IMG/VR virus record: IMGVR_UViG_3300025418_000346
Coordinates: 1-38,395 of that record
DNA: 38,395 nucleotides
DNA from: a virus
Strand: one strand, 5' to 3'
Positions 17,675 to 28,695 of this stretch are shown one piece after another. Positions within the stretch are counted from its first letter, which is position 1. Each line of letters begins with the position of its first letter. The notes under the pieces were generated by a model. The model saw only the letters and a list, made by a program, of their open reading frames with translations. It was not told where the DNA came from and searched no databases. The position numbers and the translations under genes are program-made.

Positions 17675-17829
17675 CCCGATCCTGCTACGCGTACGACTTC
17701 TACGGGCAAGAGTGGCTAACCGTTTGCGGGTCTGGCTCTTGTCCGTGGCAGGTCTACACCCCCACCCTACGCGACGCGAAACGCTCGCGGCTCAAGCACA
17801 CGCGCACCGAGTGCGCTGGTGGCTACTAA
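17671..17829 (+). CDS. Small Cys-containing protein (52 residues)
   Basis: The product begins MTRSCYAYDFYGQEWLTVCG and contains CGSGSCPWQVYTPT and a basic stretch RDAKRSRLKHTRTEC. Four Cys could bind zinc. I chose the ATG at 17671, which overlaps the previous stop, over an upstream in-frame ATG lying inside that gene. The stop codon lies inside the first copy of a 32-base direct repeat. Confidence 0.55.
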   Translation: MTRSCYAYDFYGQEWLTVCGSGSCPWQVYTPTLRDAKRSRLKHTRTECAGGY

Positions 17830-17958
17830 TACCGACGACTCAACCGATAGGGGAGCGTTTGACGCTTGACTTATGCCACGGCATAGGCAAAGATCAGCAA
17901 ACAGGGAACGAGTCCGCGAAGGATTCACTAATACCGACCAACCAACCGATAGGGGAGC
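17825..17958 (+). repeat. Imperfect 32-base direct repeat, 102-base period
   Basis: Copies lie at 17825-17856 and 17927-17958 and match at 29 of 32 positions, beginning ACTAATACCGAC and ending CAACCGATAGGGGAGC. The GGGGAGC end of the second copy is the ribosome binding site of the gene at 17964. The same end in the first copy has no start codon at a suitable distance, which suggests that a gene between the copies was lost or that the repeat arose by local duplication. Confidence 0.7.
17859..17894 (+). promoter_or_regulatory. Weak candidate internal promoter with palindromic operator
   Basis: Two overlapping -35-like boxes, TTGACG (17859-17864) and TTGACT (17866-17871), precede the palindrome TATGCC-AC-GGCATA (17872-17885). 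The -10 candidates, CATAGG and AAAGAT, are poor. The palindrome is the clearer signal and could be an operator for the second half of the early operon. Confidence 0.25.
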
Positions 17959-17963
17959 AAATA

Positions 17964-18158
17964 ATGAACAAGAATCAAGGACGAATCGCCTACTTTGAGG
18001 CGAAGGCAAAATTACTAGAAAATAACGCGATGAAGTTTGCCAGTGAAGGTCGCAACGATGAAGCGATTAAAGCTGGCATAGACATGGTGCGAGCCATGAG
18101 TGAAGCAACACGCCTACGCATAGGGCTAGGCAATAACAACCCAACCGACGCAGCATAA
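17964..18158 (+). CDS. Small helical hypothetical protein (64 residues)
   Basis: The product begins MNKNQGRIAYFEAKAKLLEN and is predicted to be two amphipathic helices, with DEAIKAGIDMVRAMSEATRL in the second. It has no Cys. The ATG follows GGGGAGCAAATA, a strong site. A longer open frame extends upstream, but it would run through the repeats without a good start. The function is unknown. Confidence 0.6.
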   Translation: MNKNQGRIAYFEAKAKLLENNAMKFASEGRNDEAIKAGIDMVRAMSEATRLRIGLGNNNPTDAA

Positions 18159-18172
18159 GAAAGGAGAGAACA

Positions 18173-18334
18173 ATGGCTAAGACACTGACTGAAACTATCG
18201 GACAACCTGCCACTGACGCACTACACGAAGCGATCAGAGTGGCATGGCAAGCAGGCTACGATCAAGCGATGATAGACCTGCAAAATCATGAGCAACACAT
18301 CAGCCAATTAGTGGCAGAAGATATTGGAGAATAA
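18173..18334 (+). CDS. Small helical hypothetical protein (53 residues)
   Basis: The product begins MAKTLTETIGQPATDALHEA and continues with AWQAGYDQAMIDLQNHEQHI. It is an acidic helical protein with an excellent AAGGAG site. Its stop overlaps the methyltransferase start as TAATG, so it is translationally coupled to that gene. The function is unknown; an accessory role with the methyltransferase is only a positional guess. Confidence 0.6.
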   Translation: MAKTLTETIGQPATDALHEAIRVAWQAGYDQAMIDLQNHEQHISQLVAEDIGE

Positions 18335-19340
18335 TGGCTACATTTGTTTCACTCTTTGCAGGTGTGGGTGGCTTTGATCTTGGTTTTGAGCAAGCTGGTC
18401 ACACCTGCGTAGGGCAAGTAGAGATAGATAAACACGCACAATCTGTGCTAAAGACACATTGGTTTGATGTGCCACTACATAATGACGTAACTACAGCTAC
18501 ACAATGGGCAAAGGAGATAGGTTTAATTGGAAAAGTTGACATTGTTTGCGGAGGATTTCCGTGCCAAGATGTCTCAGTCGCTGGCAAGCGTGCTGGAATC
18601 GCTGGGCAACGAAGTGGATTATTCTGGGACGCAATACGATTTGCACAAGAAGTTAAAGCACAAACAATCGTCTTGGAAAATGTCCCAGGACTTCTATCAA
18701 GCAACAACGGACGCGATTTCGGAGTCGTCCTCACTGCTCTGGCCGACGCAGGGTATCGCCACATTGAATGGCGAATTTTGGATTCGCAATTCTTCGGAGT
18801 ACCCCAGCGACGCCGTAGAGTCTTCATTGTCGGAAGTGTTACAGACCGACGCACCAGCCCGATACTCATTGAGTGCGAAAGCAGCGGAAGGAGTGCTACG
18901 CAGATCCAATCGCGGGGGCAAAACACTTCCCGATCATTTGCAGAAAGCTCTTGAAGATGTGGTGGGTCAAGTCGCGCAGAGCGCAGAGTGATACCGATTT
19001 TGAAACTTGGGTAGAAGGTGGCATAGTGCCGACCTTAAATGCTTTTGATAACGGAGATGTAAGGACTACAGTGTTAATTTTATTTGAAGCAACAAGGGTG
19101 GATGATGTAAGAATCCATGAGAAAGTAAGCCCAACCGTTCCAACTTATTGGGGAACGGGTGGAGCAAGAGTTCCTTACTGGTCTACAACACCAATCAGGC
19201 GTTTAATGCCTGTTGAGTGTGAGAGATTGCAAGGCTTCCCCGATGATTGGACCGACGGACAGGCAGATAGCCACCGATATAAGCAGATGGGAAATGCAGT
19301 AACTGTGAATGTAGCACGATGGATCGGGGAGCGTCTTTGA
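18334..19340 (+). pseudogene. C5 cytosine DNA methyltransferase (Dcm/Dnmt-like) in three reading frames
   Basis: All C5-methyltransferase motifs are present but split. Frame one (18334 to about 18842, open to 18954) carries motif I (FAGVGGFDLGFEQAG), motif IV with the catalytic Cys (GGFPCQDVS), motif VI (ENVPG) and QRRRRVFIVG. Frame two (about 18824 to 18991) carries ARYSLSAKAAEGVLRRSN, a segment I know from phage enzymes just after that point. Frame three (about 18985 to 19340) carries IVPTLNAFDNGDVRTT, motif IX (RRLMPVECERLQGFPDDW) and motif X (QMGNAVTVNV). Both shifts are +1. Two indels from decay or assembly error are the simplest reading, with programmed shifting less likely. If intact, it would methylate phage DNA against host restriction. 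Confidence 0.85.
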
Positions 19341-19786
19341 TCCGCAACCTCAACCCAGACGATCAACCGCTATGCGCGGACCCAGCCTACGACCCAGAAA
19401 TGTGGTTCCCTGAACCAGCTGGGCGTGGCAATCCTAACCTAGATACGCGCATTAACGCGACGTTAAGTAGGGCGGTAACTGCCATGCAAATCTGCACTAT
19501 CTGCCCGTTGCAACTAGCCTGTATTGAGTACGCGATGGAGTCTCTTGAGACGATCCATTACGGTATTTATGGCGCAACCTTGCCCATAGATCGGCAACGG
19601 GCGGTAGGTGCTGGGGATATTTCCAATACCCAGACTTGGCAGAGTAGGATTAGAAAGATGGCGAATGAGAAGGACATCCCCGTGCCTTACATCGCCAAAA
19701 GGGAAAGGCCAGAACTATTAGTATCCTTACAAGAAAGAGCCTCGTGGCGTGCGTTGTCCTGGGATTCATCGGAGGAGGCATCATAA
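19337..19786 (+). CDS. whiB: WhiB-family Fe-S transcriptional regulator
   Basis: This protein has 149 residues from a TTG at 19337, which has GGGGAG 5 bases upstream. An ATG at 19319 is in frame but lacks a site and overlaps the methyltransferase. The WhiB signature is clear: Cys13, then CTICPLQLAC with Cys53, Cys56 and Cys62 (C-x2-C-x5-C), a DPEMWFPE segment, and the GIYGA turn that replaces the usual GVWGG. These four Cys bind a 4Fe-4S cluster. Members act with the primary sigma factor in Actinobacteria, and phage copies can repress host whiB genes. The C-terminal 65 residues are basic and variable. Confidence 0.88.
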   Translation: MIRNLNPDDQPLCADPAYDPEMWFPEPAGRGNPNLDTRINATLSRAVTAMQICTICPLQLACIEYAMESLETIHYGIYGATLPIDRQRAVGAGDISNTQTWQSRIRKMANEKDIPVPYIAKRERPELLVSLQERASWRALSWDSSEEAS

Positions 19787-24442: not shown

Positions 24443-24764
24443 CTTCGGCTTCGTCTACTATCTCCCTCAAGATATATTCCACAATCTCTGGGTTGTCTTT
24501 GAGCGCAGTAAAAATATGATAGCCAACAATGTCACAGACTTCTTCTACATCAAAGCGTTTACGTGTAGACATTGGTGTTTCAAATATAACTGCATGAGTC
24601 AGCTCGTGCATAAACACACGGATCATCTTATCTTCAGGAAGATTGTCGCGTATGCGAATTGTATTGGTGGCAGAATCTGTCATGCCGTAAGCCTCTGGGT
24701 CATCAAGATCGTATCTGATCTTGTATTTCTGCCCAGCAATGCGGGCAAACTTTGGCTTATTCAT
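24435..24764 (-). CDS. ImmA/IrrE-like zinc metallopeptidase
   Basis: In this 109-residue protein the motif VFMHELTHAVI (His53-Glu54-x2-His57) is a classical HExxH zinc site. TNTIRIRDNLPEDKMI upstream and EEVCDIVGYHIFTAL downstream fit the ImmA/IrrE or SprT-like minimal metallopeptidases common in actinophages. ImmA proteins cleave repressors; here no repressor gene is visible, so the target is unknown. The ATG overlaps the primase stop (ATGA). Confidence 0.78.
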   Translation of the reverse strand: MNKPKFARIAGQKYKIRYDLDDPEAYGMTDSATNTIRIRDNLPEDKMIRVFMHELTHAVIFETPMSTRKRFDVEEVCDIVGYHIFTALKDNPEIVEYILREIVDEAEDA

Positions 24765-25396
24765 GCGGCTAGTCTATCAGCAAACCAGTCAGATCCGCTG
24801 TCCAAGAAGGTATCGTTGACATCACGGTTGGCAGGTAAACCCACGATTATCGCTTTGTCCAAGTCTTCTTTAATGCGCTTCGCCAATTCCTGTCCTGGGT
24901 TTCTTCCATCTTCTTTAACATCATTGTCAGCAAAGATGAGAATACGGTTGTATGACTCAAAGAGTTTTGGGAACCACGGCTTCCATTGGCTGACACCAGC
25001 GACCCCAACAGCTGGTATTTGAACCATGCCCGATAATATGATGGTGTCAATCTCGCCCTCGCAAATGGCAATAGTGTCACTATGCTTATGCAAATCATTA
25101 ACATTAAACAGCCCAATCTTTTGACCCGTGGGCCATATGTACTTAGGTGTGCCATCATCTAATCTCCTAAACTTGATACCCACCACGCCAGCGGGAGTAA
25201 TATAAGGAATGGAAAGCATGCCTGTAGCATGTTCATGGCCAGCTGCTGGATCAACGACGCTTCCAAGAAGGAATGTATTTGCCACTTCCTTTGTTAGTCC
25301 CCGTCCCGCGAGGTAAGAGGCTGCCTGTGGCGTTAGATTGTTGGAGTATCTTTCGGCTGCTTCCGTGAGTAATGCTCTCTGCTTTGCGTTTAGCAT
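24761..25396 (-). CDS. DNA primase, Toprim catalytic subunit (split primase)
   Basis: The 211 residues contain an N-terminal helical part (LTPQAASYLAGRGLTKEVAN), GHEHATGMLSIPYITPAGVV, and then the Toprim core: Glu113 in AICEGEIDTII and Asp157-Asn-Asp159 in IFADND. These acids hold metals for RNA primer synthesis, as in DnaG. It lacks the zinc-binding domain, which is encoded separately just upstream in another frame with an overlap of 146 bases. The same division occurs in L5-type mycobacteriophages. The start ATG lies within the zinc-finger gene. Confidence 0.85.
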   Translation of the reverse strand: MLNAKQRALLTEAAERYSNNLTPQAASYLAGRGLTKEVANTFLLGSVVDPAAGHEHATGMLSIPYITPAGVVGIKFRRLDDGTPKYIWPTGQKIGLFNVNDLHKHSDTIAICEGEIDTIILSGMVQIPAVGVAGVSQWKPWFPKLFESYNRILIFADNDVKEDGRNPGQELAKRIKEDLDKAIIVGLPANRDVNDTFLDSGSDWFADRLAA

Positions 25397-25613
25397 CTGC
25401 GAATCCTAGTCCTTCCTTTGCTTGTACTAATGTGTATACATCTCCGAGTACCTGACAGACAAGGCAGTTGTATGCCTGATTGTCTAGGTTGTAGGCGGCA
25501 CTTGCTTGGGCATCATCATGGATGACGCACTTGCAAGGCACCCAGCCGTGCTTGTCTATAACGTTAAGCCCGTAGTGTTCTAGCACCAGGGCAATGTCAG
25601 GCTTGGATACCAC
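25251..25613 (-). CDS. DNA primase, CHC2-type zinc-finger subunit (split primase)
   Basis: This 120-residue protein has WVPCKCVIHDDAQASAAYNL followed by YNCLVCQVLGDVY, providing Cys27/Cys29, His32, Cys50 and Cys53 in the DnaG-type template-binding ribbon. Then comes GLGFADAKRKAESI. The last 45 residues overlap the Toprim gene in a different frame and look unstructured (Ser/Gly/Lys). It starts at a GTG overlapping the resolvase-like stop. It probably pairs with the Toprim protein; a fused product by +1 frameshift is conceivable but unnecessary. Confidence 0.8.
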   Translation of the reverse strand: MVSKPDIALVLEHYGLNVIDKHGWVPCKCVIHDDAQASAAYNLDNQAYNCLVCQVLGDVYTLVQAKEGLGFADAKRKAESITHGSSRKILQQSNATGSLLPRGTGTNKGSGKYIPSWKRR

Positions 25614-25956
25614 TTTGCTTCAACCATTGGTTCAAATCTTGGACTACCCAGCTCTGATCTAGCCCCGCCATGCGACGCTTGACAATGACATAGGCTGGCG
25701 GTACTGCATCTAGGCCACGAGCCTTAGCGTAGTTGGCTGCCTCAACGCAAGCCTCACGCCAGAACTGTGGCAGATCCATCTTTACCGTAGCCTTTAATTC
25801 AAAGATGTAGGGCTGACCAGCGACCATGCAAACAATGTCGCCTTCATCGTCCTTGCCAGCCAACCTAAGCCGCTCAGCCGCTACACCCTTGCCACGAAGC
25901 CATTTGAGTATGCCCGTCTCAAAGGCTGAACCTTTACGCTTTCCGTATGTACTCAA
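25597..25956 (-). CDS. Holliday-junction-resolvase-like PD-(D/E)XK nuclease
   Basis: This protein has 119 residues from TTG 25956, which overlaps the helicase stop as TTGA with a GGAG-type site upstream. TTG 25971 is also open but lacks a site. STYGKRKGSAFETGILKWLR contains the helix Glu. GKDDEGDIVCMVAGQPYIFE with LKAT supplies the Asp and Glu-x-Lys of the nuclease core (GDI ... ELK). The family resembles Hjc-type resolvases of phages. It would cut branched recombination or replication intermediates. It sits between helicase and primase genes. Confidence 0.72.
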   Translation of the reverse strand: MSTYGKRKGSAFETGILKWLRGKGVAAERLRLAGKDDEGDIVCMVAGQPYIFELKATVKMDLPQFWREACVEAANYAKARGLDAVPPAYVIVKRRMAGLDQSWVVQDLNQWLKQSGIQA

Positions 25957-26780
25957 CGAATCCCACTCCAAGTCTGTGCAACGAAAGCTGATGATCTATC
26001 ACCATAGATAGACATACGACTTGCATCTGCCCACAGTGTAACGAACTTGTCACCTGTAGCGCTGTGTTTACCAAAGCGATTCTTGACAACTGCAACACGA
26101 AACTCTCCTGAGTATGGCACTAGAGCCACGGTCAGAATCATCTCAGGCAGCTGAGCAATCTTGCCTTGGATAGCCTTACGGCTTGGGGGGATGTCAGGCT
26201 TTCCTTCTGCTTCACTGGTATGGTGAAGTAGCATCACGCCTGCATCTGTCTCACGAGCAATGTGGTGCATAGCCTTGGCAATCTCACGAAGGCCAGACCA
26301 TTCATCGTTGTGCATAGAGACAACGTTCATTGCATTGTCCACAATAATCATGTGGGGATATTCACCATATGCTTCACCGTAGGCACGGATAGCAAGATCA
26401 ATCTCATCAAGTGTTGGGCTAGGGGCGAAGTCAAACTGTAAGTGCGTAATGCTGGCTAGTTCATTTTCGTAGAACTCTTTACCAGCACCAGTTGTAAATG
26501 CTTCTTCTACTGTGGCGACTTGATGGCCAGTAATCATTGCTGCTGCACGGATTGCTGTGGTGTAAGAATCGGTATCTGCGGATATGTAAAGCGTAGGCAC
26601 TTCCATCTTCACCGCCATCCAAAGGGCTATGAGTGATTTACCAGCGTTAGGTGCGCCAGCAATCATGGTCAACTGTCCTCTGCGAAACCTAATCCCCTCG
26701 CTTTGTAGCGAAGGGAAAAGGTCTGGCAGTAACTGATGATCGTTAGTGCTTTTCGCTGCCGCTTGGGTAAGTGACAGCAT
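25953..26780 (-). CDS. DnaB-like / RecA-fold replicative helicase ATPase
   Basis: In this 275-residue protein Walker A is GAPNAGKS (42-49), Walker B is MIIVDN (144-149), and a third motif, VMLLHHTSE, matches motif H3 of DnaB/RepA-type ATPases. The N-terminus lacks the DnaB primase-binding domain, so only the motor domain is present, as in many actinophage helicases. It likely unwinds DNA with the adjacent split primase. No DNA polymerase is encoded nearby, so it may load the host replisome. Confidence 0.82.
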   Translation of the reverse strand: MLSLTQAAAKSTNDHQLLPDLFPSLQSEGIRFRRGQLTMIAGAPNAGKSLIALWMAVKMEVPTLYISADTDSYTTAIRAAAMITGHQVATVEEAFTTGAGKEFYENELASITHLQFDFAPSPTLDEIDLAIRAYGEAYGEYPHMIIVDNAMNVVSMHNDEWSGLREIAKAMHHIARETDAGVMLLHHTSEAEGKPDIPPSRKAIQGKIAQLPEMILTVALVPYSGEFRVAVVKNRFGKHSATGDKFVTLWADASRMSIYGDRSSAFVAQTWSGIR

Positions 26781-26785
26781 CTAAA

Positions 26786-27187
26786 TTATCTAACGAACTT
26801 AGGCTCGCACTGGTCAGGTGTTCCCTTAGCGGATGGGCAGAACCAGCCCTTCCATGCCTTTGGCGCTCCTGGCTTTGACTCACGCCATACCAACGCACCG
26901 TGCTTACAGTGTCCCTCTGGAAGCTGTGCTGGTGCTGCTGGAGCAGCAGATGCTGAGTATGCAGGTGCCGCTGGGGCTACTGGTGTAGCACCAAGTGATG
27001 CTGCAAGGTTGCGTACAGCGCTTGCTGATGTAAGTGATGCCATCACTGAATTGATGAGAGCAGATGTATCTTGAATAGTTGTTAACTGCACTTCAAGTTC
27101 AGCTGCATCTTGTGCATAGACATTCACCATTGTACCGTCAGTCATTTTGTAACTGACTTGATACTTTGTATTTTCGTTTGCTGCCAT
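26786..27187 (-). CDS. Hypothetical protein with C-terminal Cys/His-rich domain (133 residues)
   Basis: An N-terminal beta segment (KYQVSYKMTDGTMVNVYAQD) and helix are joined by an Ala/Pro linker (about 68-88) to a C-terminal region with HCKHGALVWRESKPGAPKAW, FCPS and DQCEP, a likely zinc-binding fold. Proteins like this recur between Cas4-like nuclease and helicase genes of actinophages. A ssDNA-binding or recombination-mediator role is suggested by context only. AAGGAG precedes the ATG. Confidence 0.6.
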   Translation of the reverse strand: MAANENTKYQVSYKMTDGTMVNVYAQDAAELEVQLTTIQDTSALINSVMASLTSASAVRNLAASLGATPVAPAAPAYSASAAPAAPAQLPEGHCKHGALVWRESKPGAPKAWKGWFCPSAKGTPDQCEPKFVR

Positions 27188-27197
27188 TTGTTTCTCC

Positions 27198-27857
27198 TTA
27201 TTTTATTTCTGCTAGTGGATCGTATATTTGTGAAAGTTGTCCGCCGACTGCGTAACAGTAGTCCTTTACGCCGCAAGTAGAGCAGGCCATTCCAATGTTT
27301 GGAAGGTAAATGTTAGCATCAATTCCCCGTACAAACTGGGCAAAGAGTTCGGTCATTACTGGAACTGTCCAGCGATCTAGGCCAGTAGCCTCTTTGAACT
27401 CAGCCTTACGGGCATCGTAATAGTAGCCCTTGGTTGGTCTGATACCAAACTGCATCTCCATACAGCAGGCATATATACCCAACTGCATAGATGAAGTCGG
27501 CATAAAACTACCAGTCTTGAAGTCAATGACTGCAAGTTCACCTGTTGGCTCAACCACGATGGCATCAGCAAATGCCTTGATAGGTACATCGCCAAAGTTT
27601 AAGAGCCAGCCAAGTTCTGCTGCTGGTACACCTTCAGGTGTTACCCACAACTCAAACTGTGACTCCTGCCAAGCATTGATGAAATCAAAGAACATCCGCT
27701 TGCCATTGTTATCCCACCAGACTTTGTTCTCTTTGTCTGGGTTTTCTTTGGTGGCACGACCAGCTACACGCCAGTCTGTTGGATTGCTGCCTGACTTGGC
27801 TTCTTGATCTGCAATGGCTTCAAGGAACGATTCATCCCAAATGTTATCCCAGGTCAT
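27198..27857 (-). CDS. Cas4/RecB-like nuclease, C-terminal part (catalytic core and three Fe-S cysteines)
   Basis: This 219-residue protein begins MTWDNIWDESFLEAIADQEA. Asp98 in AFADAIVV, Asp112 and Lys114 in VIDFKTG, and Gln125/Tyr129 in QLGIY form most of a RecB-type PD-(D/E)XK site. Cys192, Cys195 and Cys201 (CSTCGVKDYC) are the three C-terminal ligands of a Cas4-type 4Fe-4S cluster. The N-terminal His motif and the first Cys are missing here but present in the separate 72-residue product of 28477-28695. Intact homologues carry both in one chain. The start overlaps the preceding stop as ATGA. It is probably a recombination or end-processing exonuclease working as a two-chain enzyme. Confidence 0.8.
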   Translation of the reverse strand: MTWDNIWDESFLEAIADQEAKSGSNPTDWRVAGRATKENPDKENKVWWDNNGKRMFFDFINAWQESQFELWVTPEGVPAAELGWLLNFGDVPIKAFADAIVVEPTGELAVIDFKTGSFMPTSSMQLGIYACCMEMQFGIRPTKGYYYDARKAEFKEATGLDRWTVPVMTELFAQFVRGIDANIYLPNIGMACSTCGVKDYCYAVGGQLSQIYDPLAEIK

Positions 27858-28072
27858 TCGTGTAAACCTTTATAGTAAACAGTACCGTCACCGTTGTCTT
27901 TCAAAGTTCCAGGTACTGCTTCAAGCAAATATTCCGCAGCAAGAACAAACCCTCTGGTATATAGCATTTGCACTTGAGGATTCCATTCATTTGATATGAG
28001 ATTTGATTGTGCTTTTTCAATTAACTCAAATGCAATCCGCCGACGATAATTTCCTAATTCATCATGACTCAT
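27854..28072 (-). CDS. Small hypothetical protein inside split nuclease locus (72 residues)
   Basis: The product begins MSHDELGNYRRRIAFELIEK and has LYTRGFVLAAEYLLEAVPG, a helical segment, then DNGDGTVYYKGLHE. I chose ATG 28072 with AAAGG upstream; a TTG at 28081 is an alternative. No catalytic motif is visible. It is the third of three small genes that separate the two nuclease parts. Its stop overlaps the start of the nuclease C-part. Confidence 0.6.
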   Translation of the reverse strand: MSHDELGNYRRRIAFELIEKAQSNLISNEWNPQVQMLYTRGFVLAAEYLLEAVPGTLKDNGDGTVYYKGLHE

Positions 28073-28259
28073 TTGTTTCAACCTTTCCTGCTACTAATTC
28101 CTGAGCTTGGCGTAAGCCAGTGATGATGTCAGGGTTTGTTTCGTTCTCAATGAGGACTTCAATCCTAGCACCTAAGTTCTTGCGCATAACAACTTCAGCT
28201 TCCACAAAGGATTGCATGAAGGCATCACGGCTAATAATCTTTGCGTGTTTGCGTCCCAT
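28062..28259 (-). CDS. Small hypothetical protein inside split nuclease locus (65 residues)
   Basis: The product begins MGRKHAKIISRDAFMQSFVE, basic at the start and then helical (EAEVVMRKNLGARIEVLIEN), ending in a Gln/Glu-rich helix. GGGAGCAGTA precedes the ATG, which overlaps the preceding stop as TAATG. It belongs to no family I can name. Confidence 0.6.
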   Translation of the reverse strand: MGRKHAKIISRDAFMQSFVEAEVVMRKNLGARIEVLIENETNPDIITGLRQAQELVAGKVETNES

Positions 28260-28477
28260 TACTGCTCCCTATCTATCGGTGTAACAACTGTTGCAAGGCT
28301 GTCGCAGAGAACGCAGCGGGCAGTTGTCCCGTACATTCCAATTTCAAAGTCAGTGTCAAACTTACACTGGACATTCCACCATTCTGATCCGCAGGGACAA
28401 ACTCGTATTGGACCGAGTGAACGGTAGTCTGCTTCTGCACCCTGCGTGGATTGTATGTTTCCAAGTTTATGCTCCAT
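28259..28477 (-). CDS. Zinc-ribbon-like small protein inside split nuclease locus (72 residues)
   Basis: The segment RVCPCGSEWWNVQCKFDTD and the CVLC pair at 55-58 give a CxC ... CxxC arrangement typical of small phage zinc ribbons. The N-terminal 20 residues look disordered. It starts within the stop of the nuclease N-part (TAATG), so it is translationally coupled to it. Its place between nuclease halves is unusual; a structural role in the complex cannot be excluded. Confidence 0.65.
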   Translation of the reverse strand: MEHKLGNIQSTQGAEADYRSLGPIRVCPCGSEWWNVQCKFDTDFEIGMYGTTARCVLCDSLATVVTPIDREQ

Positions 28478-28695
28478 TAGAACGGTACATCCGCGTACTT
28501 TGCTTTGTCTAACTTCTTCTGATGTTCAGCCAGTAGGAACTTCTCAGCTGCTGAGTGAAATGCACTACCGCCAACGAAATACCATGCTGGCTCTGATGGT
28601 GCTTGCAAGTTGCGCTCTAGCTCAAATGCTTTGCCACAGCGTAACCATGATGTAAATGCACTGAATGATCTATGTTGTATTTGTGTTTCTTTCAT
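28477..28695 (-). CDS. Cas4/RecB-like nuclease, N-terminal part (His motif and first Fe-S cysteine)
   Basis: This 72-residue protein begins MKETQIQHRSFSAFTSWLRC. The SFSAFTSWLRC block with Cys20, then PAWYFVGGSAFHSAAEKF with His47, is the recognisable N-terminus of RecB/Cas4-like exonucleases of phages. The chain stops at residue 72, and the matching remainder is encoded 620 bases downstream at 27198-27857. The ATG lacks a Shine-Dalgarno sequence but lies 6 bases after a -10-like element, so translation is probably leaderless. It is the first gene of the leftward replication operon. Confidence 0.75.
   Translation of the reverse strand: MKETQIQHRSFSAFTSWLRCGKAFELERNLQAPSEPAWYFVGGSAFHSAAEKFLLAEHQKKLDKAKYADVPF

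Follow-up and report, generated by a model that had tools for sequence, protein, structure and literature searches.

The window, the whole 38,395-nucleotide stretch of viral DNA analyzed here, contains on its minus strand a run of five genes in the order N-part, zinc ribbon, 65-residue gene, 72-residue gene and C-part (Table 1). By sequence the outer two, present as the earlier note described them (28477-28695 and 27198-27857), together make up a single Cas4/AddB-type PD-(D/E)XK exonuclease, of which they are the N-part and the C-part. The junctions between the N-part and the zinc ribbon and between the zinc ribbon and the 65-residue gene are TAATG overlaps sharing 1 nt, the 65- and 72-residue genes overlap by 11 nt, provided that the ATG at 28072 is used, and the 72-residue gene shares 4 nt (ATGA) with the C-part. 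All junctions among the five genes overlap, as the note had stated, but they number four rather than five, the C-part being followed by a 10-nt spacer that contains an AAGGAG site and no overlap. The three small genes between the parts are likewise present in the window, but this number is not fixed: relatives carry 0 to 4 genes there, and the 72-residue accessory gene occupies this site in just two close relatives besides the window.

Table 1. Features of the split-nuclease locus and the adjoining replication genes
Feature	Coordinates	Strand	Remarks
N-part of split nuclease, 72 aa	28477..28695	-	carries C20 (first Fe-S cysteine), motif-I H47 and E51; C-terminus ...KYADVPF
Pro-Phe codons preceding the N-part stop	28480..28485	-	SSB-tip-like C-terminus (ADVPF-COOH)
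c1, zinc-ribbon-like protein, 72 aa	28259..28477	-	CxC...CxxC: C27, C29, C55 and C58 invariant within the c1 family; median dN/dS 0.185
c0, helical-hairpin protein, 65 aa	28062..28259	-	typically the last core gene preceding the C-part; median dN/dS 0.10
Accessory gene, 72 aa, no family assigned	27854..28072	-	ATG at 28072; alternative TTG at 28081
C-part of split nuclease, 219 aa	27198..27857	-	D98 (motif II), D112/K114 (motif III), Q125/Y129, C192, C195, C201
gp49-like gene	26786..27187	-	next operon gene after the C-part
DnaB-like helicase	25953..26780	-	belongs to the same replication module as the split nuclease

The locus is carried by many related freshwater viruses of actinobacteria, which form a large group. 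A WhiB-like protein encoded in the window (19370-19597, +) supports an actinobacterial host and, together with a G+C content of about 45-50%, is as expected of phages of low-GC actinobacteria. The primase of the window also occupies two genes (24761-25396 and 25251-25613, -), which encode CHC2 zinc ribbon and Toprim parts; since phage PA6 is likewise annotated with two primase genes (gp31/gp32), this split is common to known phages. On the plus strand, 18334-18954, within 17712-19786, matches the middle portion of a DNA methyltransferase family (positions 208-388 of 779), and the adjoining overlapping ORFs may carry more of a divided methyltransferase gene.

Family assignment and division of the motifs

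Profile searches place the two products in one family. The N-part matches phrog_69 (E 7e-10), phrog_1870 over positions 14-66 and PDDEXK_1 over positions 3-52, and the C-part matches phrog_1870 over positions 80-293 (E 4e-34) and PDDEXK_1 over positions 67-246, which leaves ~13 profile positions between them. Because the matched stretches adjoin, the products are consecutive pieces of one family, and the N-part aligns to the family of the C-part (phrog_1870, PDDEXK_1) rather than to a different one. Against PF12705 (PDDEXK_1), which has a curated cut-off of 22 bits, the C-part scores 42.5 bits, above this value, and the N-part alone 18.2 bits, under it; the joined sequence of a relative, L197, reaches 52.7 bits over positions 1-246. 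Enzymes of this kind escape automatic annotation, since their N-part scores below family cut-offs. No second full-length Cas4-like gene was found in the window or in 15 related virus records of 36-41 kb: a phrog_1870 search of the whole virus record returned just the places of the N-part and C-part, a PDDEXK_1 search of the window gave no match beyond the split pieces, and the same profile retrieved split pieces only from the 15 related records. The N-part profile had no relative in bacterial and archaeal genomes.

The PD-(D/E)XK motif set is complete over the two chains, with H47 in the N-part and D98, D112-x-K114 and Q125/Y129 in the C-part, and the cysteines follow the iron-staple pattern of one N-terminal (C20) and three C-terminal residues (C192, C195, C201). 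In the alignment of 153 members (99 distinct N and 134 distinct C proteins), all of these positions, together with E51 and E81, are invariant (153/153). What is absent is the arrangement of the motifs on one polypeptide, which is usual though not strictly defining for the family, the parts being encoded by separate genes in 155/155 complete segments. Four single-chain proteins served for comparison, namely Rhodococcus AngryOrchard gp53, Mycobacterium BobSwaget gp66 and Acolyte gp64, and Propionibacterium PA6 gp37, which are annotated as exonuclease or Cas4 exonuclease and are all encoded upstream of a DnaB-like helicase. When both products are aligned to these single-chain phage Cas4-like nucleases, the motifs line up: the early cysteine, the His, the D, the D-x-K, the Q...Y and the three late cysteines fall on C20, H47, D98, D112, K114, Q125, Y129, C192, C195 and C201, and the break lies in the loop following the motif-I helix. 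The claim of the earlier note that the active site and the cysteines are divided between two genes is borne out by this correspondence with the Rhodococcus, Mycobacterium and Cutibacterium phage exonucleases.

A joined form was modeled on L197, a 30%-identical relative in which N and C abut in frame and which was read through its TAG junction as one chain. With an input alignment (A5) of joined, single-chain and part sequences, AlphaFold2 gave a mean pLDDT of 84.8 and a pTM of 0.82, confidence dropping near the break, and joined L197 is confidently predicted to form a complete Cas4/AdnA-like nuclease fold. The best matches of the model among solved structures (the mycobacterial AdnA nuclease domain, the Cas4-family ACE1, Dna2 and SSO0001) span both parts, and so does the best match among viral models, a Cas4 exonuclease that Streptomyces phage WRightOn encodes as a single chain (TM 0.74, 282 columns). 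A profile search against AdnA aligns both the cysteine block of the N-part and the C-x2-C-x5-C block of the C-part.

Distribution, selection and alternative explanations

Scans of IMG/VR with the two parts yielded about 150 loci, a scan with a more distant member (35% identity) added 52, and the N-part profile had at least 348 matching places, the 80 best of them being retained; after deduplication, IMG/VR and phage records contributed 155 complete N-to-C segments. Retrieval relied on conserved peptides, so unusual forms are under-sampled; profiles built from split and single-chain members together proved too diverse for scanning the collection. The same split was found in related genomes, in relatives down to 35% identity. 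Every one of the 155 segments is split, 58 with overlapping or abutting parts and 97 with variable small genes, spanning 72-749 nt, between them.

The commonest gene between the parts is the zinc ribbon and the commonest order is zinc ribbon followed by the 65-residue gene; further small genes may precede, separate or follow these two. A 47%-identical clade has the zinc ribbon alone between N and C (L113), and its sisters are without an insert (L115-L117); elsewhere the 65-residue gene stands alone between the parts (L106), or an unrelated gene does (L145). In the loci seen, the zinc-ribbon and helical-hairpin genes are located only between nuclease parts, and neither family had a match in 50,697 phage records or in Pfam. 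A role of these two proteins as a structural part of the nuclease is not supported, overlapping-type relatives lacking both. One locus (L206, 1417-1960) has an N-part fused in frame to the second half of the C-part with ~100 residues missing, a probable internal deletion or misjoin.

In a maximum-likelihood tree of the joined proteins, the split members all group together, and the split likely arose once; the placement of single-chain PA6, on a long branch, is uncertain, so that a single origin is not proven. The insert state changes at least 4 times on well-supported branches of this tree, and the small genes look like stepwise insertions into a gene that was already split.

Both parts are under purifying selection, with a median dN/dS of 0.23 for N and 0.13 for C. 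Mirror-tree correlations (n=31) are 0.69 for N and C, 0.57 for N and the zinc ribbon and 0.53 for N and c0, in the expected direction, although the signal is too weak to count for much. The earlier note had read the locus as a maintained arrangement and not as decay, and this agrees with the low dN/dS of both parts, the 153/153 invariance and the 155 split segments; decay of the gene is ruled out by dN/dS and residue invariance, and the split is old and maintained. The invariance of the cysteines could reflect stability alone, since the cysteines of Pcal_0546 are not essential for activity (PMC4176176).

That the split is a pseudogene, an assembly error or a sequencing artefact has practically no likelihood: such a reading can draw on the metagenomic origin of most member contigs and on nothing beyond, and it is opposed by the recurrence of the split across 155 distinct segments, by its presence in sequenced isolates (OX376640/OX376641; PMC10202952) and by the purifying selection that acts on each part. 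It is also improbable that the N-part is a mere remnant, or now serves another function, with a C-part that is self-sufficient or inactive. The somewhat faster evolution of N relative to C would fit this, as would the conserved Pro-Phe end that many N-parts have acquired for themselves; however, C20, H47 and E51, residues relevant solely inside the nuclease fold, are invariant in all 153 members though tail residues vary freely, and loss of the N-part was never seen in loci long enough to reveal it.

A further alternative holds that a single chain is made from both pieces after all, whether through programmed frameshifting, read-through of the stop, bypassing or splicing of the RNA. Relative to N, the C-part of the 58 adjacent loci lies in the +1 (30), +2 (23) or 0 (5) frame, and its start lies up to 23 nt within the N gene or as late as immediately past the N stop. 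The 30 loci in the +1 frame, which have overlaps of 8-23 nt, would be compatible with frameshifting, and in the 5 in-frame loci N and C are parted by TAG alone; these (L197, L200-L203), where the TAG abuts a TTG in one frame, are the sole relatives in which amber read-through could yield a single chain. Against joining stand the conserved genes that lie in the 72-749 nt separating the parts in 97/155 segments, the occurrence of all three frames with variable stops and tails, and the lack of a slippery sequence common to the adjacent loci. An Rfam search that included intron families gave no match in the window region or in nine relatives. The C-part, moreover, retains its own start codon, often with a ribosome-binding site, and in many overlapping loci a Shine-Dalgarno-like AAGGGGGAA lies within the N tail ahead of the C start. 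Production of one chain is very unlikely on this evidence, the inserts, the mixed frames and the lack of an intron match leading to the rejection of frameshift, bypass or splicing to one product.

The SSB-tip-like end of the N-part

The N-part terminates in Pro-Phe in 70 of the 97 insert-type segments and in none of the 58 adjacent ones. The preceding residues are usually acidic, then hydrophobic or proline, as in TDEPPF and EDKPPF among relatives, and residue -4 is acidic in 48/69. Across 69 Pro-Phe members, the Pro codon underwent at least 17 and the Phe codon 7 synonymous changes, the stop codon changed 10 times and each of the ten residues preceding the motif 14-23 times, and Pro-Phe was never lost; this lineage was chosen by having Pro-Phe, and across all 93 insert-type members the motif amounts to only 3 gains or losses. 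A subclade (L077-L106) is without the Pro-Phe end and has GKDNG/KKNG ends instead. Among the other 3,884 ORF ends of the same loci, none is an acidic-x-Pro-Phe end.

Known partners of the bacterial SSB tip include RecO, PriA, DnaG and ExoI. Over a dozen proteins of replication and repair are bound by the E. coli tip, DDDIPF (PMC5872125), and actinobacterial SSBs end in PF in 78/78 cases, as (D/E)EPPF or near it. No SSB was recognised with PF00436 in 16 records including the window. It is a reasonable hypothesis that the N-part tail may mimic the SSB tip, and more speculatively such an end could recruit host proteins that read the SSB tail. A broader proposal, in which the carboxyl end created mid-fold by the split would display an SSB-tail mimic and an Fe-S-clasped two-chain nuclease would dock on host SSB-reading proteins, is tentative and rather doubtful; alternatively, the N-part tail might dock onto the C-part. 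The conserved end hints at what the split might bring to the phage, namely a possible route for SSB-less phages to host repair proteins.

A proposed two-chain nuclease and its known relatives

The explanation that we consider very probable is fission of a one-chain ancestor, the products most likely forming one nuclease of two chains that share an active site and an Fe-S staple. An ancestral single-chain phage Cas4/AddB-type exonuclease gene would have broken in the loop behind the motif-I helix, giving two genes that are translated separately, and this form would have been retained through the radiation of an actinophage group. The two products most likely assemble in trans into one nuclease domain, presumably active, to which the N-part would give the motif-I His and the first cysteine and the C-part the D, the D-x-K, the Q-x-x-x-Y and the last three cysteines. 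The Fe-S cluster, if formed as in the family, would be shared and would staple two chains rather than two ends of one; by analogy with relatives it may be of the 4Fe-4S type. The gap opened by the split would then have taken in small genes several times. Gene order points to a recombination or replication role. The split nuclease belongs to a known enzyme family as a new variant and is not a new enzyme class.

In the current view the Fe-S staple clamps the two ends of a Cas4/AddB-type nuclease to each other, and a long-lived natural break between the first cysteine and the other three makes this idea testable by genetics. The locus is also a clear example of a gene that underwent fission and then took up small genes repeatedly, with intermediate stages visible in relatives, two cultured phages included. 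Searches of the open-access literature turned up no phage nuclease of the Cas4-like type described as split.

The cultured relatives are the Planktophila phages LanE43AprE7 (probably OX376640, 39.1 kb) and LanE43AprF5 (OX376641, 38.9 kb; locus L153 for the pair), described as phages E7 and F5 of Ca. Planktophila LanE-43 (PMC10202952), an abundant freshwater bacterium. Both carry the same split nuclease in the overlapping form, but unlike the window they have a C-part that is ~34% identical, no genes between the parts and no Pro-Phe tail. With the bacterial SSB tip (DDDIPF; DDEPPF in actinobacteria) the N-part shares a terminal acidic-x-Pro-Phe-COOH, a likeness in sequence; here, however, the tip terminates a nuclease half and not an OB-fold protein.

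The single-chain actinophage Cas4 exonucleases (AngryOrchard gp53, BobSwaget gp66, PA6 gp37; PHROG 1870/69) resemble the split enzyme in motifs, in the four cysteines, in joined size and in location, their genes lying ahead of a DnaB-like helicase within the replication module; in these phages too, genes after the nuclease precede the helicase, as the gp49-like gene does here. They differ in consisting of one gene and one chain, with a continuous loop after motif I and no SSB-tip-like end in mid-fold. AdnA/AddB and the Cas4 proteins SSO0001 and Pcal_0546, in which the "iron staple" is known, have the same fold and the same succession of His, Asp, (D/E)xK and QxxxY, and likewise four cysteines, an early one and three late ones, which bind the cluster (PMC4176176, PMC3466216). 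The cluster is required for activity in SSO0001 and not required in Pcal_0546 (PMC4176176, PMC3466216), where it is of the 2Fe-2S type (PMC4176176). AdnA/AddB, SSO0001 and Pcal_0546 are each one chain stapled to itself; the nuclease of the window has its first cysteine and motif-I His on a separate polypeptide.
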